From Candidatus Sumerlaeota bacterium (GTDB lineage Bacteria; Sumerlaeota; Sumerlaeia; Sumerlaeales; Sumerlaeaceae), in assembly GCA_026398535.1 (NCBI GenBank), contig JAPLSQ010000055.1, positions 1 through 64,000 of the forward strand: 64,000 bases of DNA. The letters run 5' to 3'. The notes beneath the pieces were generated by a model. It was given only the letters and a program-made list of their open reading frames with translations. It searched no databases and was not told the DNA's origin. The translations under genes were made by a program, and so were the position numbers. How positions within the stretch are numbered: position 1 is the first letter of the stretch; each line of letters starts with the position of its first letter. Shown here one piece after another: positions 45,550 to 57,622 of the stretch.

Positions 45550-46533
45550 ATGACTGCCCGAATCAATTGTGTTCTAAGAACGGATCTCAAGGACGCGATC
45601 CCGATATTGAAGGTGCTCTCGAATCCCGCGCGTTGCGCGATTCTGGAGGTTATTGCGGATGGGCCGCAAAGTGTGTCTGAGATCACCACGATCACGGGGC
45701 TGGACCAAGCCACTGTATCCCAACACATTCAAGCGCTTGAAAAGGCTGGGCTGGTGCGCACAAGTCACGCCCCCGGCGTTCGCGGACGCCGCAAAATGGT
45801 CCAGCGCGCAGTCGACAACATCCTCCTCCATCTTCCAGTAAAAGATGAGGTCGAGGAGGAGGAGCAGAGTATAGAGATGCCCATCGGGCTCTACACGGAT
45901 ATTCGCGTTGAGTTCCCCTGCGGATTTCTGACGGCGCACCAGTTTGTTTTTCCCGTGGACACTCCCTCGACGTTTCTGCATCCCGACCGCGTTAATTCGG
46001 AACTCATCTGGTTGAGGGACGGATTCATCGAATATTCGTTTCCCTACACGCTCGGCAGGGACTACCATCCGACTCACATCGAGGTCAGCGCGGAAGTGTG
46101 CAGCGAGACGATTGACTACAAGGAGGACTTCCCGTCTGACTTGACCGTTTGGATCAATGGGATTGAGATCGGGATGGTGCGAATGCCCGGGGACATGGGC
46201 GCGCGCTACGGGGCGTTCACCCCCTCTTGGATTCCGAAAACTCACACAAAGTACGGTTTTCTGAACATCTGGTCGGCCAACAAGGACGGATTCTGGGTGA
46301 ATCAGTTTGCGGGCGCGCCCGGCGCCATTGGCGATCTGAACCTTTCACCGTCCGAGCCGATCAGTGTGCGGTTTGGGTTCAAAGAGGCTTCGATTCATGG
46401 CGGGCTTAACATTTTCGGCGCCCATTTTGGCGATTTTGACCAGGCGATCAGAATGCGCATTGTCGGAAAGCCCTCCTTGACGCCCAACGAGCGCCTGGTC
46501 TCGGAGGTCAAACGCGCGCTGATGTCGGTGTGA
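45550..46533 (+). CDS. ArsR-type regulator with large C-terminal ligand-like domain
   Basis: A 327-residue regulator. Residues 15-85 are a winged helix of ArsR type (ILKVLSNPARCAILEVIADGPQSVSEITTITGLDQATVSQHIQALEKAGLVRT). There is no metal-binding ELCVCD motif. The ~210-residue C-terminal domain (LIWLRDGFIEYSFPYTLGRDYHPTHIEVSAEVCSE; DLTVWINGIEIGMVRMPGDMGARYGAFTPSW; NIFGAHFGDFDQAIRMRI) matches a family of regulators I know from carbohydrate-utilisation loci of Firmicutes, a beta-sandwich probably sensing a sugar. It heads the glycan locus and may control it. The upstream gap is AT-rich and holds TTGACA at 45489 and two ATTACAAA repeats (about 45465 and 45520) that may be operator sites. Confidence 0.85.
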   Translation: MTARINCVLRTDLKDAIPILKVLSNPARCAILEVIADGPQSVSEITTITGLDQATVSQHIQALEKAGLVRTSHAPGVRGRRKMVQRAVDNILLHLPVKDEVEEEEQSIEMPIGLYTDIRVEFPCGFLTAHQFVFPVDTPSTFLHPDRVNSELIWLRDGFIEYSFPYTLGRDYHPTHIEVSAEVCSETIDYKEDFPSDLTVWINGIEIGMVRMPGDMGARYGAFTPSWIPKTHTKYGFLNIWSANKDGFWVNQFAGAPGAIGDLNLSPSEPISVRFGFKEASIHGGLNIFGAHFGDFDQAIRMRIVGKPSLTPNERLVSEVKRALMSV

Positions 46534-48289: not shown

Positions 48290-49939
48290 ATGCGATCACT
48301 GGCGAAATATAGCTGGATGGCGCTTGTTGTGTTGCTCCACTGCGCCGCGCATGGGCAGTTGCCTCCCGTGACATTCAATTGGGACGCGCAACCGCTTGCG
48401 GGCACGGGTTTCAAGGCGCCGCTGGAACTGCCCAATGGCGATATCCTGGCGGTCGGCACGGCCGGCCTGAGCGGCGGCGGCGCGGCCGTCCGATGCCATC
48501 GCAGTCTCGACGGCGGGCGCACATGGAGCTATCTGTACGAAATAGCGCGTGATGAAACGCCCGGCGCGGATATCGGCGACGGCCACATCATGATGCTGCG
48601 CAACGGCGTCATTCTCTATTCCTACAGGCATAATAATTTTTCCGGTTTGCCCCCCGCCCAACAGGCTTATCGCATCAAGGTGGCGCAAAGCGCAAACAAC
48701 GGCGTGAGCTGGGCGCCGCATTCGACCGTTGCCAGCAACACGGGGCTCGAGGGCACACTGGCCGGTTTGTGGTCAAGTTGCCTGATCGAGCTGACGAGTG
48801 GAACACTGCAATGTTATTATGACGACGAGTATACGCCCGGCGCGGGGGGGTTCACCAACAACCAGTGGCTCAGCATGAAAACATGGGATCCCGCCGCATC
48901 ATCATGGAGCGGCCGCGTCACGGTGAGCCGCGCGCACAACGCCGGCGATCTGTCGAGGGATGGCATGTGCACCGTGCTGGAGCAGGATGGCGGCCGGCTG
49001 TTGTGCGCCCTCGAGAGCGTTCAGACGACGGGCGGGCACGGTAATGTCGTCCGTTATGTCACATCCAACGATGGCGGCCGGAACTGGTCGTGGCAGTGGC
49101 AGGAGCGCATGGTCATTTATTCGCCCGCGGATCACAGGTACAACGCCACGGCGCCGTGGATGGCGCGGTTGTCAGGGGGCGAAATTCTGTGCATTCTCAC
49201 GACGGACGAAGACCGCGCGACGCCGGGTGAGTCGTCGACCGGCATCCTCTATCAGGACCTTAAATTCGCCCTCAGCTACGACAACGGCGCGACGTGGACC
49301 ATCCCGAAGCAGACCCTCCTGCCCACGTCAGAAGCCGCAGGCCAGACGTGGCGCTACGCGCTCAACACGCCCGCCGCTGGATGGGAGACGCCGGCATTCA
49401 ATGACACGGCATGGCTGCAGGGCTTGGGCGGATTTGGGACGGCGGGCACGCCCGAAGCCGTTGTGCGCACAACATGGAACACAGGCAACATCTGGGTGCG
49501 GCAGACATTCAGCCTGGCTGAAATCCCGCCGGGCATCCTCCAGTTGCGGATGCACCACGACGAGGACGCCGAAGTTTATTTAAATGGCGTGAATGCCACA
49601 TCCGTCACCGGATACACGACGGTCTACAGAAACGAAAACATCAGCGCGGCATCCTCGGGGGCTGTTCATACGGGAGACAATGTCATCGCGATACACTGCA
49701 GCCAGTCCGGTGGCGGGCAGTACATTGACGCGGGGCTGGAGTGCGTGGGAAACATCATCGACAATCATCACCCCATTTATTTTTCGGGATTTGCGGAGCT
49801 GAAAGCGCCCGCCCGCACCAACACGCTGCTGCTTCAATACATCCGCAACGGCGCGCTTGTCACACTGCGCGGCCTTGTGGAAAGGCAGTCAGGCGTGGGC
49901 GAGTGGATGCGCCACGAGACAGTTTCACACAATCATTAA
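48290..49939 (+). CDS. Secreted sialidase-fold protein with an inserted beta-sandwich module
   Basis: A 549-residue protein with signal peptide (SLAKYSWMALVVLLHCAAHG). Residues ~20-345 are a BNR/Asp-box propeller (SLDGGRTWSY, SANNGVSWAP, SNDGGRNWSW, SYDNGATWTI) like exo-sialidases and related glycosidases; conserved VTVSRAHNAGDLSRDGMCTVLEQDGG and APWMARLSGGEILCILTTDEDRATP are shared with the paralogue at 56417. Between the last Asp box and the final strand pair, ~150 residues (WRYALNTPAAGWETPAFNDTAW ... NVIAIHCSQSGGGQYIDAGL) form a beta-sandwich like that ending the GH2 protein next door. AAGGA precedes the chosen ATG. Substrate could be sialic acid or another acidic or deoxy sugar. Confidence 0.8.
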   Translation: MRSLAKYSWMALVVLLHCAAHGQLPPVTFNWDAQPLAGTGFKAPLELPNGDILAVGTAGLSGGGAAVRCHRSLDGGRTWSYLYEIARDETPGADIGDGHIMMLRNGVILYSYRHNNFSGLPPAQQAYRIKVAQSANNGVSWAPHSTVASNTGLEGTLAGLWSSCLIELTSGTLQCYYDDEYTPGAGGFTNNQWLSMKTWDPAASSWSGRVTVSRAHNAGDLSRDGMCTVLEQDGGRLLCALESVQTTGGHGNVVRYVTSNDGGRNWSWQWQERMVIYSPADHRYNATAPWMARLSGGEILCILTTDEDRATPGESSTGILYQDLKFALSYDNGATWTIPKQTLLPTSEAAGQTWRYALNTPAAGWETPAFNDTAWLQGLGGFGTAGTPEAVVRTTWNTGNIWVRQTFSLAEIPPGILQLRMHHDEDAEVYLNGVNATSVTGYTTVYRNENISAASSGAVHTGDNVIAIHCSQSGGGQYIDAGLECVGNIIDNHHPIYFSGFAELKAPARTNTLLLQYIRNGALVTLRGLVERQSGVGEWMRHETVSHNH

Positions 49940-49949
49940 TTGGAGTATC

Positions 49950-52241
49950 ATGAGCATACAGCAAATCGACAAAGAACCGCGCGCGGAGGAAGAAACGCAG
50001 GCCGCGCCTGCCGGAGTTCCCCGCCCGGAGCATCCGCGCCCGGACCGCGAGCGTCGCAATTGGATGAACCTTAACGGCGAATGGGAATTCGCTGAAACCA
50101 ACGACACCGCGGACGAATCGTGGCTGCGCAAAGACAAATCTTATCCTGGCCACATCAGCGTGCCATTCTGCCGCGAGAGCAAACTCTCAGGTTTGTCCCG
50201 CAAGGGATTCGTCAAGAATGTGTGGTACAGGCGGACATTCCGGCGCCCCTCGTGGCCGGCGCCGCGCGTGAGGTTGCACATCGGCGCGTGCGACTGGCAC
50301 ACGCGCGTGTGGGTGAACAACAAGCTTGCGGGCCGGCACACCGGCGGCAATTGCGCGTTCTCCTTTGACATCACAGATGCGCTTGGCGATTCGGACAAGT
50401 TCACGGTCGTCATTCACGCCTATGACGCCACGCGAAGCGGTCTGCAGGCACTCGGCAAGCAAAGCGACAAGTTGCGCAATCATTCGATTTTCTACACACG
50501 CACGACGGGCATTTGGCAGACGGTGTGGCTGGAGGGAGCCGGCGCGGGGGAAATCGGCGAGTTTTCGGTCGTGCCCGACGCGGGCAACAGCCGCGTCATC
50601 ATCCAGGCGGACATCAGTCATTGTCCACCGGGCGCGGCGCTTGAAGCGGAGGCTCATGCCGGCGGACGTCTGGCGGGAAGCGCGTCCGCTCCCGCGGCAG
50701 GGCGCAACATGCTGATCGTGCTCGATCTTGGGGAAAAACACCTGTGGTCGCCCGAACATCCCTTTCTTTACGACCTCACGCTGCGGCTCACACGCGACGG
50801 CGCGACACTGGATAAAGTCCGCGGATATTTCGGCCTGAGAAGCGTGGCGATTGACGGCGCCGTGCTGCTGCTCAACGGCAAGCCGTTGTTTCAGCGGCTG
50901 GTCCTTGACCAGGGATTTTATCCCGACGGGGTGTGGACGGCTCCGACCGACGAAGCCCTGCGCCGCGATATCGAACTGTCAAAAGCGCTCGGATTCAACG
51001 GCGCGCGCCTGCACCAGAAAGTTTTCGAGCCGCGCTTCCTGTACTGGGCCGACCGGCTCGGGTACCTTGTCTGGGGCGAGTATCCCAGTTATGGCGCCCA
51101 TTATCACAAACCCTCGGTGAACAACCCCATCACGCGCGAATGGGCGGAGATTGTGCGGCGCGACCGCAATCATCCCTCCATCATCGGCTGGTGCCCGCTT
51201 AACGAAACGCCGCGCCAGGCCGGCGAATTGCAGAACACGATCGTTGATATCACCAAGGCGCTCGATCCGACGCGTCCGGTCATCGATGCCAGCGGCTGGA
51301 GCCACAGCCACCCGCAATCAGACCTGCTTGATCAGCATGACTATGATCAGAATCCCGCCGCGTTCCGCCGGCGCTGGCACAGCCGCGTGGATGGCGTGCG
51401 CTACCCCGCCCGCTATCAATGCACCCAGCAGAACGGCGCACCCTTTTTCATCAGCGAGTACGGCGGCATCGGCTGGAACATCGGCAATGACGGCTGGGGA
51501 TACGGCAACGCTCCCGGCAGCCTCGATGAATTTTACGAGCGCCATGCCGGGCTGACAAACACCCTGCTCGATAACCGTTTTTTATGCGGTTTCTGCTACA
51601 CACAACTCACCGATGTCGAGCAGGAAAAAAACGGCCTCTACACGTTTGACCGTAAGCCGAAATTTGACGCGGCGCGCCTGGCCGCCATCAACGCGCGCCG
51701 CGCCGCCTGTGAGGTTGATCCTCCGCTGGCGGGCTCGCTGCCGCGGATTGACTGGCGCGTGCTGATTGGAGGATGGCCCGATGGAGAGCTTGCGGCCGGC
51801 TGGCGCATCAGCGCGCAGCAGCCGCCCGATTCATGGGCGCAACCCGGCTTCGACGACAGCGGTTGGAGGCCCGGCCGCTGGGCCTTTGGCGCTCCGCCCC
51901 ATGTTCTCAAATCGGCACATGCCGAACGTATGCCGGAGGAATTCTGGATACGCGCGGAATTTGAATATAACGGCGCGAATTTCGACATCCTCTCCCTGCT
52001 CCTGCACTTTGACGGCGAGGCGAAGGCATGCATCAACGGCGCGCCGGTTTGGAACGACAGATGCGTGATGGATGAATACGTCGGCCACGCGATCACCGGC
52101 GCCGCGCGTCCCCACTTGAAAAAGGGCGCGAACCTTATTGCGATTCACTGCCAGCAGCTTGAGCGGTCGATGTACTTCGACGCGGTGCTGCTGACAGGCA
52201 ACCGGTTGTCCGGCAAGGCTGGGCGCGCAGGACGGAGCTGA
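49950..52241 (+). CDS. Glycoside hydrolase family 2 enzyme with C-terminal beta-sandwich module
   Basis: A 763-residue GH2 of the beta-galactosidase/beta-glucuronidase clan. Sugar-binding domain (RRNWMNLNGEWEF...VPFCRESKLSGL...NVWYRRTF; HIGACDWHTRVWVNNKLAGRHTGGNCAFSFDIT), Ig-like domain, then the TIM barrel with RSVAIDGAVLLLNGKPLFQRLVLDQGF. The acid/base is probably Glu419 (WCPLNETPR) and the nucleophile Glu503 (FFISEYGGIGWN). The C-terminal ~140 residues are an extra beta-sandwich (FWIRAEFEYNGANFDIL, ANLIAIHCQQL). No signal peptide is present, so it should act in the cytoplasm on imported oligosaccharides. Start at 49950 has GGAG upstream. Tightly linked to the gene before (10 bases) and after (2 bases). 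Confidence 0.9.
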   Translation: MSIQQIDKEPRAEEETQAAPAGVPRPEHPRPDRERRNWMNLNGEWEFAETNDTADESWLRKDKSYPGHISVPFCRESKLSGLSRKGFVKNVWYRRTFRRPSWPAPRVRLHIGACDWHTRVWVNNKLAGRHTGGNCAFSFDITDALGDSDKFTVVIHAYDATRSGLQALGKQSDKLRNHSIFYTRTTGIWQTVWLEGAGAGEIGEFSVVPDAGNSRVIIQADISHCPPGAALEAEAHAGGRLAGSASAPAAGRNMLIVLDLGEKHLWSPEHPFLYDLTLRLTRDGATLDKVRGYFGLRSVAIDGAVLLLNGKPLFQRLVLDQGFYPDGVWTAPTDEALRRDIELSKALGFNGARLHQKVFEPRFLYWADRLGYLVWGEYPSYGAHYHKPSVNNPITREWAEIVRRDRNHPSIIGWCPLNETPRQAGELQNTIVDITKALDPTRPVIDASGWSHSHPQSDLLDQHDYDQNPAAFRRRWHSRVDGVRYPARYQCTQQNGAPFFISEYGGIGWNIGNDGWGYGNAPGSLDEFYERHAGLTNTLLDNRFLCGFCYTQLTDVEQEKNGLYTFDRKPKFDAARLAAINARRAACEVDPPLAGSLPRIDWRVLIGGWPDGELAAGWRISAQQPPDSWAQPGFDDSGWRPGRWAFGAPPHVLKSAHAERMPEEFWIRAEFEYNGANFDILSLLLHFDGEAKACINGAPVWNDRCVMDEYVGHAITGAARPHLKKGANLIAIHCQQLERSMYFDAVLLTGNRLSGKAGRAGRS

Positions 52242-52243
52242 AA

Positions 52244-53329
52244 ATGGGCGCGGCGCCGGATTTGCCGGTTTACAGGATACTCAGCGACAACGGCCTCATC
52301 AATGCGCGGGAGCGCCATATCGCGCGGCTTCAGGAAATATACGAAGGCAAAAAACCGGCCAGGCCGTTTTTCCTTTTCGGCATAACCGGCAACATCAACG
52401 GCGTCGCGCCGCCGGCGCAATCCAATCCGCTGGCGGGGATCGCGCAATCCACCAGCTTGGCGCCCGTCGATCCGTATGTTGACGCTGAGAGCTGGGTGGC
52501 GAAGGCGCTGGAGGATCTTGCGCAACGGGCAGACGCGCTTCGCGATGAAACCGTGTTCCGCCCGCTGTGTCTGGAGTTCGGCCCCTATGGCGTTCATTTC
52601 ATCGACCGTATCCTTGGCGCCCATGTTTACACCAGCCCCGACGGGACATGGTGGGTGGATTATTTGTCCGGCGAGGTGGGCGCGCTGCGGGCGCCTGATC
52701 TTTTCGCACATGACACATGGTCGCTGGCGCGGCGTTTTGCCATGGCTTTCCTTGGGGCGGGTGTGACTGTGCCGTTTTTTGGCCTGCCCACAATCGCCTC
52801 GGCGTTGAACATTGCCCTAAATTTACATGGCGAGAAAATCCTGCTGGCATTTTACGAGGAGCCGGACGCGGCGCGGCGCGGCCTGCGGATCATCAATCGC
52901 GTTCTGTGCGAGACGCACCGCTGGTACCTGGCCAATATCCCCCATGCCCAGTTGCAGCCTGTCATCGCGCAGAACCGGTGCCAGCCGCCCGGGCACGGCC
53001 AGTTGTGCGGATGCAGCACCCAGCTTGTGTCGCGGCATGTGTATCAGGAGTTCATCGCACCGCTCGATGAGGAGCTAATCTCGGTTTATCCCAACGGGGG
53101 CATGATCCACCTGTGCGGGTCGCACACGCAACACATTCCGGTGTGGCGCGCGATGAAGCGGATGCGCGCGTTCCAGCTCAATGACCGCGCCGCCGAGGAT
53201 TTTGAACAGTATTACAGGGAACTTGGCGATGACCGCATTTTTTATATCAATCCGACGGAGAATGTGACCATCGAACGAATCCTCAAGGTGACGGACGGAC
53301 GGAGAGTGGTCATCATTGCCGATCCGTGA
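52244..53329 (+). CDS. Uroporphyrinogen decarboxylase-like (URO-D superfamily) protein
   Basis: A 361-residue protein of the URO-D/methyltransferase MtaA-like superfamily. Features include GKKPARPFFLFGITGNINGVAPP, FRPLCLEFGPYGVHFIDRILG, GCSTQLVSRHVYQEFIAPLDEELI and GGMIHLCGSHTQHIPVWRAMKRMRAFQLND, the His/Cys region that in relatives binds zinc. True HemE residues for haem synthesis are not obvious, and the position, two bases after GH2 and overlapping the region of the ABC importer start, ties it to glycan use. URO-D-like proteins are frequent in glycan loci of anaerobic PVC bacteria; a methyl-transfer role is possible but unproven. Confidence 0.78.
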   Translation: MGAAPDLPVYRILSDNGLINARERHIARLQEIYEGKKPARPFFLFGITGNINGVAPPAQSNPLAGIAQSTSLAPVDPYVDAESWVAKALEDLAQRADALRDETVFRPLCLEFGPYGVHFIDRILGAHVYTSPDGTWWVDYLSGEVGALRAPDLFAHDTWSLARRFAMAFLGAGVTVPFFGLPTIASALNIALNLHGEKILLAFYEEPDAARRGLRIINRVLCETHRWYLANIPHAQLQPVIAQNRCQPPGHGQLCGCSTQLVSRHVYQEFIAPLDEELISVYPNGGMIHLCGSHTQHIPVWRAMKRMRAFQLNDRAAEDFEQYYRELGDDRIFYINPTENVTIERILKVTDGRRVVIIADP

Positions 53330-53360
53330 AACATGTCATCAGGGAACGCGCCCCGCCCTT

Positions 53361-54656
53361 ATGAGGGCCGCGCAAGCGCCGCGCGCGTGGCGGCGTTTTT
53401 TCTCACTGTTTCACGGCTGGCTGGCCGCGCTTGTCGCGCTCGCGCTTGCCGGGTGCGGCGGGCAGGAACGCCCCCTGACAGACCTGCAATACTGGAACGG
53501 ATTCGTGGGGCCGGACGGAAATATCACGGAACCGATTCTGAAGGATTTTGAGTCGAAAACGGGCGCCCGCATCGAGGTTCAGAAGATGCCATGGGGGATT
53601 TATTTCGACAAGCTCATCTCGGCGATAGCCGCAGGCAATCCGCCCGATGTGTTTGTGTTGCACATGAGCGAACTCGCCAGTTACGCCGAGATGGGAGCGC
53701 TGCTGCCGCTCGATGAATACATCAACAGCAACGACTCGTTCTGCCCGAAAGCCGACCGGATTCAAAGCATCTGGGAGCGTGCGTGCTACAAGGGACAGTG
53801 CTATGGCGTGCCTCTCGACATCCATCTTCTGGGATTGTACTATAACAAGGATTATTTTGACGCGGCCCATCTGCCCTATCCAAGCGTCACGGAGCCTTTG
53901 CGCGGCGAACAATTCATTGAAATCGCGAGAAAGCTGACCATTCAGGACAAGGACGCGCCAACGTCTAACATTTGGGGATTTTCATTTTCCGGCGAACCCT
54001 TTCGCAACTTCGACACACTGCTGTGGCAGTTCGGCGGCAACCTGTTGACGGATAACCTGAAACAATCCGCCATCAACTCCCCTGAGGCAAACAAGGCGCT
54101 TCAGTGGATGCATGACCTTGTGTACAAGCACAAGGTGTCGCCCATGCCGGAGGGCGTGGACACATGGCAGTTTTTCGTCCAGGGGCGGATTGCGATGATC
54201 ACCGAAGGCTGCTGGGTGTTGAACGGCCTGACCCGCTACGCCAAATTCCGCTGGGGCGTGGCGCCATTCTTTCTCGCGGGCGGCACGCGCGCCGTGTGGG
54301 CCACCGGGCATGTGTTGTGCCTGTCGCGCAATCTGCCGCGTGAAAGAATTCCGATGGCGCTCAAACTCATGAAGCACCTCAATGACACGGGCGTCATGTG
54401 GTCAACTTCAGGCATGCTCCCCACCCGTTATTCCCAGATCAGGTCAAAGGAGTTCCTGGAGCAGTCACGCGCGATTCCGTTCACGTCACAACTGGACCGT
54501 ATCCGCTTCGAGCCCGCTTCGCCCATCGGCATCGAGCTGCGCGACCGTTACCAGCAGACCGTGTTCTCGTGTCTTGCGGGTTTATTCCCGGTTCAGCAGG
54601 CGCTGACGCGCGTCGACGGGCAGATGAACCGAACCATCGAAACATATTACAGGTGA
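53361..54656 (+). CDS. Sugar ABC transporter substrate-binding lipoprotein (family 1)
   Basis: A 431-residue solute-binding protein. A basic start (RAAQAPRAWRR), hydrophobic helix and lipobox LALAGC mark a lipoprotein. ILKDFESKTGARIEVQKMPWGIYFDKLISAIAAGNPPDVFVLHMSELASYAEMGALLPLDEYI is typical of MalE/UgpB-like binding proteins; YGVPLDIHLLGLYYNKDYFD and MITEGCWVLNGL follow. The ATG at 53361 gives a sensible signal peptide; a TTG at 53316 inside the previous gene is an alternative. It is followed without a gap by two permease genes, so together they form a carbohydrate importer. Confidence 0.92.
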   Translation: MRAAQAPRAWRRFFSLFHGWLAALVALALAGCGGQERPLTDLQYWNGFVGPDGNITEPILKDFESKTGARIEVQKMPWGIYFDKLISAIAAGNPPDVFVLHMSELASYAEMGALLPLDEYINSNDSFCPKADRIQSIWERACYKGQCYGVPLDIHLLGLYYNKDYFDAAHLPYPSVTEPLRGEQFIEIARKLTIQDKDAPTSNIWGFSFSGEPFRNFDTLLWQFGGNLLTDNLKQSAINSPEANKALQWMHDLVYKHKVSPMPEGVDTWQFFVQGRIAMITEGCWVLNGLTRYAKFRWGVAPFFLAGGTRAVWATGHVLCLSRNLPRERIPMALKLMKHLNDTGVMWSTSGMLPTRYSQIRSKEFLEQSRAIPFTSQLDRIRFEPASPIGIELRDRYQQTVFSCLAGLFPVQQALTRVDGQMNRTIETYYR

Positions 54657-55556
54657 ATGGAGAGCATGCGCATCATCATGACGGGCAGAACGAAAAATGG
54701 TCTCGTCAACGCGTTATTCATCGCGCCTTATCTTGCGCTCTTCCTCGTCTGGGTTGCGTTGCCCGCGTTTTTCGGTGTGGCGATCAGTTTCACAAAGTGG
54801 AACATCTTCACAGGCGAGATCGGCTTCGTCGGGCTGAACAATTACCTCCGCGTGTTGTCGGACGACCTTTTCCTGCGCTCGCTGCTCAACACATTCCAGT
54901 ATGCCGCGCTCTCTGTCGCGGCTGGCAACGCGGTCAGCTTTCTGCTCGCGTGTGGGCTGGCGGGCGGCATCGCGGGCAGGCGATTTTTCCAGACCATCTT
55001 CTTCGCGCCCATCATCCTTTCCATCGGCGTGACGGGCGTCATCTGGGGCTGGCTCTACAACACCGATTTCGGAATCCTGAACTACTGGCTTCAGCAGACC
55101 GGCCTGCCCAGGCTCAACTGGCTCACGAACCCGAAATTCGCGATGATTTCCATCGTGATCATGGTCATCTGGGCGGGCGCGGGATTCAACATGATGATCT
55201 ATCTGGCGGGGCTGCTGAACATCCCAAAATCATATTATGAGGCGGCGCAGCTTGACGGCGCGGGCGCGATGAGCCGGATGATTCACATCACACTGCCGCT
55301 TATGAAACACACCTTCGCGTTCACGCTGATCATCTCGACAATCGGCGCGTTCCAAGTGTTCGACCAGCCATACATCCTCACCGGCGGCGGCCCCGACTAT
55401 GCCACTTACACATACGTCTACCACATCTACAGCAACGGTTTCCGATACTTCCGGATGGGTTATGCCTCGGCGCTGTCGTGCCTGCTGGCCGCCGTGATCG
55501 CGCTCTTCTCGTTCATCCAATACAAAATGCTGACAAGAAGGCGGGTGGATTACTGA
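54657..55556 (+). CDS. Sugar ABC transporter permease (MalF/UgpA-type)
   Basis: A 299-residue binding-protein-dependent permease with six membrane helices. The cytoplasmic coupling motif is YYEAAQLDGAGAMSRMIHITLPLM (EAA loop), where the transporter contacts its ATPase. The ATG follows the stop of the binding-protein gene directly. The first helix FIAPYLALFLVWVALPAFFGVAISF and WNIFTGEIGFVGLNNYLRVL are typical of the MalF/UgpA group. No ATPase gene is in the operon, so a shared MsmX-type ATPase encoded elsewhere is expected. Confidence 0.95.
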   Translation: MESMRIIMTGRTKNGLVNALFIAPYLALFLVWVALPAFFGVAISFTKWNIFTGEIGFVGLNNYLRVLSDDLFLRSLLNTFQYAALSVAAGNAVSFLLACGLAGGIAGRRFFQTIFFAPIILSIGVTGVIWGWLYNTDFGILNYWLQQTGLPRLNWLTNPKFAMISIVIMVIWAGAGFNMMIYLAGLLNIPKSYYEAAQLDGAGAMSRMIHITLPLMKHTFAFTLIISTIGAFQVFDQPYILTGGGPDYATYTYVYHIYSNGFRYFRMGYASALSCLLAAVIALFSFIQYKMLTRRRVDY

Positions 55557-56395
55557 TGAAAGCCCTGCGCGCGCCGGCCGCCGTCACCGTCTTTTGGTAT
55601 GCTCTGTTTGCGGCATTCACGGTCTTTTTCCTTGTTCCGCTGCTGTTTATGCTTGGCACCTCGCTCAAGCTGGAGAAGGAAGTTTACGATTTCCCCGTGC
55701 GATTGTGGCCGAAGTCCGCAACGGTCGACAACTATGTCGCGCTGTTCACGCGGCCAAACATCCCCATGCTGCGGTGGATCTTCAACAGTGTTTATGTGAC
55801 GCTGGCTGTCACGGCGGGCGTGCTTGTCATCGATTCGCTTGCGGCGTTTGGTTTTTCCCGTCTGGAGATACCGTGCAAGAGATGGCTTTTTGCCATGATC
55901 ATCGGTTCGATGATGATCCCCTTTCCCGCGACGCTGATCCCTGTTTACGGCCTGTTGCAGAAACTCCACTGGCTTGACACTTACAAGGCGCTCATCATTC
56001 CGCCGCTCGCTGGGCCCTTGGGCGTGTTTCTGCTGAAACAATTCTTCGACACGATTCCGCGCGATCTCGAGGAGGCGGCCTTGCTGGACGGCTGCTCAAA
56101 GGTCGACCTGTTTTCCAGGATCATCCTGCCGCTTTCCATGCCGGTCATGGCCACGCTGGGCATACTTGTTTTCATGGGCATTTGGAATTCCTTTCTGTGG
56201 CCTCTTATCGTGACCAATTCCATCAAAATGCATCCGTTGCCCGTGGGGCTGACCTTTTTCAATGGCGAGTACTGGTCGGAGCGCGCGCTGGTCATGGCCG
56301 CGGCGGCCGTGTGCGCCTTCCCGGTGCTTGTCGTGTTCCTCATCTTTCAGCGTTATATCGTTCGGGGCATCATGATGACAGGATTGAAAGACTAA
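55556..56395 (+). CDS. Sugar ABC transporter permease (MalG/UgpE-type)
   Basis: A 279-residue permease. Six membrane helices, EAA loop RDLEEAALLDGCSKVDLFSRIILPLSMP, and the MalG-like end FLIFQRYIVRGIMMTGLKD. Its ATG overlaps the previous stop by one base (TGATG), which fixes the start; upstream in-frame codons belong to the previous gene. It pairs with the preceding MalF-type permease to form the channel of the importer. Confidence 0.95.
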   Translation: MKALRAPAAVTVFWYALFAAFTVFFLVPLLFMLGTSLKLEKEVYDFPVRLWPKSATVDNYVALFTRPNIPMLRWIFNSVYVTLAVTAGVLVIDSLAAFGFSRLEIPCKRWLFAMIIGSMMIPFPATLIPVYGLLQKLHWLDTYKALIIPPLAGPLGVFLLKQFFDTIPRDLEEAALLDGCSKVDLFSRIILPLSMPVMATLGILVFMGIWNSFLWPLIVTNSIKMHPLPVGLTFFNGEYWSERALVMAAAAVCAFPVLVVFLIFQRYIVRGIMMTGLKD

Positions 56396-56416: not shown

Positions 56417-57622
56417 ATGAGGTGTTGCATTGAAGCCATGCTTATCTGCGGCTGTGTTATTCCATTAGCGGTTGAGGCCGTGGAACCGGTCATAATCAAA
56501 TGGGAGGCGGCCGTGCCTGCGGCGGGAGCGAAGGCGCTGGTTCAGACCGCCGACGGCGCGCTTCTGACGGCGCGGTCGAACCATTACACCACGGGCGTGG
56601 AGATTGCCGCGTATCGCAGCCCCCCCCCTGGCGACAACGGAACCTCGTGGGCGCAGGCGGGCATTGTGGCGCGGGACAACGATAGCACCGCCGATCTCGG
56701 CGATTCCGCGATGGCCGTGCTGAAATCGGGGGAGGTGCTCTGCTGTTTCCGGCGCAACAACTATCGGCATCGTCCCGTTGAAGAGCATTCCTATGCCATA
56801 GAGTTGTCAGCAAGCCGCGACAACGGGAAAACATGGCGCTTCCATTCCACCGTTATGGACAGCAAAGGAACGACCGGCGGATTGTGGGCGTCGTTTCTGT
56901 TGGAAAGAAGCGACGGCGCGTTGCAGTGCTATTATGATGACGAGGTGACGCCGTGGCGTGAGGGGTTCGCGCGCCATCAATGGGCGCAAATGAAAACATG
57001 GGCCCCGGACAAACGCGCGTGGGTCAACCCTGTCACGGTCAGCCGCGCGCACAACCCAGCGCATCTTTCACGCGACGGCATGTGCTCGGTTGTGGAGCTG
57101 CCTGCCGCGTCGGGCGGCCGGCTTGTATGCGCGCTGGAAAGCGTCAAGATCGATCCCCCTTGCAAAGGCAACGTGCGGTGTGTCACGTCCGACGACGGCG
57201 GCAAAACGTGGAGCTGGCAAAAGGAGGAGCGGCGCATTCTCTACCAGCCGAAGGATGTCAATTACAACTCGCTGGCGCCATGGATGATCCGGCTTTCGGA
57301 TGGAACGCTGCTATGCGTGTTCGTGACGGATGAGGCTCGCGCGACACCCGACACGCCCGCCACAGCCAGGCTTGATGAGGACCTGAAATGCGTTTTCAGC
57401 TTTGATGGCGGTGTCACGTGGTCAGAGAAAGCCCAGACAATTTCCGCGGATCATCCATGCTATCTGCCCGGAGTAATCGAATTGACGCGCGGCCCGCTTA
57501 AGGGACATGTCATGGTGCTCTATGTGGCGAAAAGCGGATTGATGAATTCAACGGGCGCTGTTGTCAGCCAAGCGAAGGAAAATGCCAGGCCAGCCCGCGA
57601 CAACGGGAAAACATGGCGCTGA
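56417..57622 (+). CDS. Second secreted sialidase-fold protein, possibly truncated at the C-terminus
   Basis: A 401-residue paralogue of the protein at 48290, without the inserted beta-sandwich. Signal peptide MRCCIEAMLICGCVIPLAVEAVE; Asp boxes SRDNGKTWRF, SDDGGKTWSW and SFDGGVTWSE; shared blocks LQCYYDDEVTP, VTVSRAHNPAHLSRDGMCSVVE and APWMIRLSDGTLLCVFVTDEARATP. AGGAG precedes the ATG. The last nine residues ARDNGKTWR are encoded by 26 bases identical to an internal Asp-box segment (56815-56840), and the gene stops right there, so the C-terminus may be the product of a rearrangement. Last gene of the glycan operon. Confidence 0.82.
   Translation: MRCCIEAMLICGCVIPLAVEAVEPVIIKWEAAVPAAGAKALVQTADGALLTARSNHYTTGVEIAAYRSPPPGDNGTSWAQAGIVARDNDSTADLGDSAMAVLKSGEVLCCFRRNNYRHRPVEEHSYAIELSASRDNGKTWRFHSTVMDSKGTTGGLWASFLLERSDGALQCYYDDEVTPWREGFARHQWAQMKTWAPDKRAWVNPVTVSRAHNPAHLSRDGMCSVVELPAASGGRLVCALESVKIDPPCKGNVRCVTSDDGGKTWSWQKEERRILYQPKDVNYNSLAPWMIRLSDGTLLCVFVTDEARATPDTPATARLDEDLKCVFSFDGGVTWSEKAQTISADHPCYLPGVIELTRGPLKGHVMVLYVAKSGLMNSTGAVVSQAKENARPARDNGKTWR
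57595..57620 (+). repeat. 26-bp direct repeat at the end of the second sialidase-fold gene
   Basis: Identical to 56815-56840 in the same gene (beginning CCGCGACAACGGGAAAACAT). The copies are 780 bases apart, a multiple of three, and the second is followed immediately by the stop codon. Confidence 0.9.

Follow-up and report, generated by a model that had tools for sequence, protein, structure and literature searches.

A GH2-type accessory beta-sandwich nested within a secreted Asp-box propeller of Candidatus Sumerlaeota

A 64,000-nucleotide stretch of contig JAPLSQ010000055.1 from a Candidatus Sumerlaeota bacterium (GCA_026398535.1), hereafter the window, encodes two paralogous propeller proteins (Table 1), one of which, P0001, contains a long segment that the other, P0002, lacks. 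How did an additional domain come to lie inside a propeller, from where was it derived, and what might it do? P0001 begins with a signal-peptide-like helix, recognized by reading the sequence, and its Asp-box repeats can likewise be read directly at residues 72–79, 134–141, 259–266, and 329–336 (SLDGGRTW, SANNGVSW, SNDGGRNW, and SYDNGATW, respectively); it matches the Pfam families BNR_2 (E 5e-10) and BNR.

Table 1. Features of the propeller and sugar locus within the window
Feature	Coordinates	Strand	Evidence
P0001, secreted Asp-box propeller with nested module, 549 aa	48290..49939	+	ORF, translation, Pfam BNR_2 E 5e-10
P0001 propeller blades 1–5, residues 27–340	48368..49309	+	alignment with 30 relatives, AF2 strand list
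Nested beta-sandwich module, residues 341–488	49310..49753	+	missing in 30 other propellers, profile match, pLDDT
Inner strands of last P0001 blade, residues 489–532 (NIIDNHHPIYFSGFAELK...LLLQY...)	49754..49885	+	aligned in 28/30 relatives
P0001 C-terminal extension, residues 533–549	49886..49936	+	past the end of nearly all relatives
P0003, neighbouring GH2 glycoside hydrolase	49950..52241	+	Pfam Glyco_hydro_2_N/2/2_C
Divergent copy of the nested module at the P0003 C-terminus	51744..52202	+	sequence and profile match, AF2 strand order
P0002, paralogous propeller without insert	56417..57622	+	alignment with P0001, tree
CBM9-like secreted protein, upstream of P0001	47405..48208	+	Pfam CBM9_1 E 1e-13
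Sugar ABC transporter solute-binding protein	53316–54656	+	SBP_bac_8/SBP_bac_1
Two sugar ABC transporter permeases	54657–55556, 55478–56395	+	recognized solely by reading the sequence

Pairwise alignment gives 48% identity between P0001 and P0002 through residue 343, after which P0001 has about 146 extra residues, which follow the fourth Asp box and precede the final blade, before the pattern HP-Y--G--EL resumes in both proteins. In a 32-row propeller alignment, residues 344–489 are vacant in all 30 other propellers, one stray 3-residue alignment aside; the flank preceding the insert is occupied in 29 rows and the one following it in 28. An earlier note on this DNA had described an interruption of about 150 residues in P0001 and a paralogue at 56417 that runs through the same place uninterrupted; both observations hold, with P0002 aligning on either side of the position and carrying no insert. 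The two proteins lie on different branches of the propeller tree, each nested among Armatimonadota rows, and so are not a recent duplicate pair. The search for further nested cases that the note had proposed was run over the genomes of four phyla and returned none among 40 genomes of the same phylum, 291 of Armatimonadota, 392 of Planctomycetota, and 388 of Verrucomicrobiota; the genomes that hold the propeller (27 Armatimonadota, 2 Planctomycetota, 1 Verrucomicrobiota, and 1 other of the same phylum) all have it without the insert.

The borders of the insert were placed at residues 338–344 on the left and 486–490 on the right, and the module profile matches P0001 at 49310–49747. The left edge was assigned from stand-alone modules, which begin with the same strand as QTLLPTSEAAGQ of P0001; in locus L015, for example, the module starts with IPQKTILPTSEKQPQTWRYT, corresponding to IPKQTLLPTSEAAGQTWRYA in P0001. 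Because QTL also fits the propeller's own QTV/QTI, the left junction can be placed only to within about six residues. The insert proposed in the earlier note therefore stands, but its start after LLPTSEAAGQ does not, the left edge lying about 12 residues farther upstream. No flanking direct repeats or target-site duplication were found at the junctions. A chimeric assembly join could in principle create such an arrangement, the genome apparently being a draft of 145 contigs, but both ends of the insert are in frame and cut exactly at domain borders, its GC and GC3 are in line with those of the flanks (0.617 and 0.743 in the insert versus 0.622 and 0.762), and the genome holds no second near-identical copy as a source for the join; we consider this explanation barely credible. 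The insertion is genuine.

Structure prediction, also proposed in the earlier note, agrees with a separate domain. AF2 folds the insert (about residues 340–486) as an independent beta-sandwich with pLDDT mostly 83–97, and the C-terminus of the P0003 model has an identical strand order. The input for P0001 was a 16-row set picked for correct alignment, as a larger MAFFT mix drew propellers onto modules. The remainder of the model is less confident, with pLDDT of 45–70 in the second half of the propeller and mostly below 50 in the last blade (residues 489–549); closure of the propeller is consequently taken from the alignment, not from the model. Whole-model fold searches returned mostly 5-bladed GH43/GH32/GH130-like propellers, which we take to indicate a propeller rather than a family, since mainly residues 27–340 were aligned.

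The low confidence over residues 489–549 raises the alternative that the propeller of P0001 is broken and has the module as its C-terminal cap, with those residues a remnant and no true nesting. Two further features would fit such decay: proline 499 of the family (P in 27/30) is replaced by serine in P0001, and GC at the second codon position is lower in the tail. However, the tail aligns in 28 of the 30 relatives, and with the nearest of them it does so through both expected strands (IIDNHHPIYFSGFAELK in P0001 matching LIVDAGHPIYFPGVCELK of L079 and LIDDGYPIYFPGACIAK of L086). The frame also remains open with a codon bias typical of the window, and the usual 1+3 closure requires the tail strands as partners for the N-terminal strand (PMC2716378). 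A broken propeller is thus unlikely, and a module nested within a probably intact propeller is the reading we follow here.

The insert has no match in Pfam or NCBIfam, yet it belongs to a widespread family. At E 1e-15 or better the module was found in 127/291 Armatimonadota genomes (44%) and 83/392 Planctomycetota genomes, mostly in open frames of about 740–900 aa, the length of GH2 enzymes. The carriers that were scanned, and those that align at full length to P0003, are mostly GH2 proteins with the module at a terminus, C- or N-; in a few carriers the module is instead joined to domains of GH43, glutaminase-like, or cellulase-like type. Among individual loci, L019 (1951–6456) is a single 1502-aa frame combining GH2 and glutaminase-A-like domains with the accessory module. 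The family shows the pattern HHDED...HC-Q--GGQ--D (49310–49753 in the window; L011–L038, L043–L049, and L099–L130). In single-sequence matches the nested module is 45–57% identical to stand-alone modules, with which it also shares motifs and predicted strands, and it matches the family profile at E 3.6e-63, P0004 itself being a row of that profile. The nested copy differs from the GH2 C-terminal accessory modules of Planctomycetota and Armatimonadota in being nested where those are terminal. It retains 36/36 of the positions conserved in stand-alone modules, or 28/28 when the MHHDEDAE motif is left out; the conservation of these eight residues is partly built in, as L011–L038 were found through that peptide, and loci found without the pattern (L043–L067) show variants such as HHDENAQ and HYDNRTT. 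Retention of the family-conserved core suggests that the nested module is likely folded and functional. The best solved relatives of the module are residues 254–374 of the Streptomyces avermitilis rhamnosidase 3w5m (E 4e-10) and the GH2 N-terminal domain 4cu6 (E 3e-6). SaRha78A contains a calcium-dependent rhamnose-binding module, CBM67 (PMC4690510); the profile matches residues 254–374 of that enzyme remotely, a stretch that we do not equate with CBM67 or domain D.

Turning to the source of the nested copy, the earlier note had recognized shared landmarks between the insert and the C-terminal module of the neighbouring GH2, and this kinship is well beyond chance: in a single comparison the two are 28% identical over 130 residues (E 3e-14), with the matching AF2 strand order described above. 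A search of the whole genome with the insert reached the GH2 at E 1.6e-12 and found these two copies only. The note had further taken this kinship to indicate domain shuffling within the locus, and here the evidence points elsewhere. The nested copy is 50–57% identical to GH2-borne modules of several other phyla against 28% to its neighbour, and the neighbour keeps only 21/36 family positions (18/28 without the eight ascertained ones) against 36/36 in the nested copy. In the tree, the nested copy groups with planctomycete GH2 modules (93/86), and a branch supported at 98/97 parts the canonical modules, among them the nested copy, from the type carried by the neighbour. The closest relative of the GH2, L049 (48% identical), bears an intermediate module, so that the divergent module type looks inherited with the GH2.

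For the module to have been copied from the adjacent GH2 C-terminus, the donor would need to have diverged fast afterwards. The adjacency of the two genes, their status as the sole module copies in the genome, and the very long branch of the GH2 copy agree with such a history, and an AU test did not reject the nested copy and its neighbour as a sister pair (p = 0.26). Given the identities, the retained positions, the 98/97 separation, and the module of L049, we nevertheless regard this history as quite unlikely, and local shuffling as an unlikely source of the module. From these comparisons, the nested module most likely derives from a canonical GH2-type copy and not from the present adjacent GH2 gene. 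The equality of GC and GC3 between insert and flanks argues against a recent arrival, and a recent transfer detectable by composition was rejected, the insert having a codon bias of 0.129 where the 5th percentile of local genes is 0.109, at the low end of the local genes yet within their range. The GH2 module (51744–52202), for its part, has lost 15/36 family-conserved positions, among them most of HHDED and GGQ, and on account of these losses may no longer bind the ligand of its family.

The propeller that received the module also required assignment. By profile it is distantly related to sialidases and GH93 exo-arabinanases, the nearest solved propellers being the GH93 exo-arabinanase 3a71 (E 8.7e-9) and the Porphyromonas sialidase 8t26 (E 8.4e-10), but the P0001/P0002 family has not retained the characteristic positions of either. 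With sites set by the 8t26 profile alignment, the GH33 RIP arginine is absent from 32/32 propeller rows, most of which have G-x-K there. The Asp of the MADRR motif in 8t26 (chain residue 194), which we take to be the GH33 catalytic acid/base, falls on Thr57 of P0001, a position that is T, S, or R in most relatives. The glutamate of the WEPF motif, presumably catalytic in GH93, is replaced by S, A, T, or G in the P0001/P0002 clade; the rows that have it are L041 and L097 alone, both outlying. The term sialidase-fold used in the earlier note is sound as a description of the fold, but P0001 has neither the GH33 motif nor the GH93 glutamate, which leaves "sialidase" as a fold label only. The family has near-invariant acidic and basic residues of its own, D97, R113, D178-D179-E180, R214, R223-D224, and E242, and it possibly represents a glycosidase family of no existing assignment. 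As an observation on its distribution, the propeller family (48290–49939 and 56417–57622 in the window; L068–L098), with near-invariant YDDE and SRDG motifs, is concentrated in Armatimonadota (27/291 genomes). Genes next to the Armatimonadota relatives encode GH43 enzymes, a solute-binding protein, and two permeases, a gene setting that resembles that of the window itself. The P0002 C-terminal extension (57545–57622) ends in RDNGKTWR, an Asp-box-like stretch located where relatives stop.

Several neighbouring genes bear on the locus as a whole. The closest solved structures to P0003 are the beta-glucuronidase 7xyr (39% identity) and the beta-D-galactofuranosidase 9j6n (35–36% identity). Between the GH2 and the transporter, a 361-aa protein at 52244–53329 appears, by reading, to be uroporphyrinogen-decarboxylase-like; a Pfam search with E allowed to reach 1 gave no match for it. 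An ArsR-type helix-turn-helix regulator (45550–46533) with a long C-terminal domain of no recognized kind lies upstream of the sugar locus and is a candidate sugar sensor.

Together, these features suggest that P0001 is probably a propeller that acts on glycans and carries its own docking module of GH2 type, derived from a canonical copy. We propose that P0001 would be a secreted, six-bladed Asp-box propeller, probably acting on glycans, into which a complete GH2-type accessory beta-sandwich was inserted after the fourth Asp box and ahead of the last blade. Projecting from the propeller rim, the module would most likely bind glycan or position substrate; it could thereby hold the enzyme on its polymer, with the neighbouring GH2 and the ABC transporter then processing the fragments. 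The insertion, the kinship of the module, its separate fold in the prediction, its absence from every other sampled propeller, and its conservation are observed; that the propeller is enzymatic, that the module binds sugar, and how the module is oriented are points that we infer. More tentatively, and with some doubt, the wider picture may be of a glycan-binding module that has been mobile in evolution, has no Pfam model, and can be inserted inside the propeller of another enzyme, so giving a built-in means of substrate docking to a new propeller glycosidase family with the motifs of neither GH33 nor GH93.

A simpler role is also conceivable, in which the insert serves structure or protein contacts and binds no sugar, as with the I-domains of NanA/NanB/NanC, NanI, and NanJ. 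No function is known for the I-domains of sialidase propellers, which in NanI and NanJ lie apart from the active site (PMC4646021, PMC11525138). Against this, the module family is mostly attached to glycoside hydrolases, and the nested copy keeps the polar HHDED and HC-Q--GGQ--D positions besides the core, the HHDED part having been selected by the search. A purely structural insert is therefore somewhat unlikely, and a docking role remains our preferred assignment.

The locus presents a normally terminal module nested within a propeller, with the uninterrupted form in the same genome serving as a control. It also draws attention to two uncharacterized families that deserve names: the HHDED module associated with GH2, for which Pfam has no model despite its presence in 44% of the searched Armatimonadota genomes, and the propeller without a sialidase motif that is linked with GH43 enzymes and sugar transporters.

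The interruption of an Asp-box propeller by an inserted domain is a recognized arrangement, organizational type 2 (PMC2716378), and P0001 is an unusual instance of this known domain nesting rather than a new kind of system. The example of this type is the Vibrio cholerae sialidase (1w0p), one Asp-box propeller in which a lectin-like domain interrupts the blades and the N-terminal strand provides the 1+3 closure (PMC2716378); P0001 differs in not being GH33 by motif, in the GH2 type of its insert, and in the site of insertion, before the last blade. The I-domains of NanA/NanB/NanC, NanI/NanJ, and RgNanH also lie within propellers (PMC4646021, PMC11525138, PMC4747158), but these are small or irregular, whereas the insert of P0001 comprises about 146 residues of a recognizable and widespread family. 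P0001 is thus distinct from earlier interrupted propellers in its propeller family, its module, and its insertion site.
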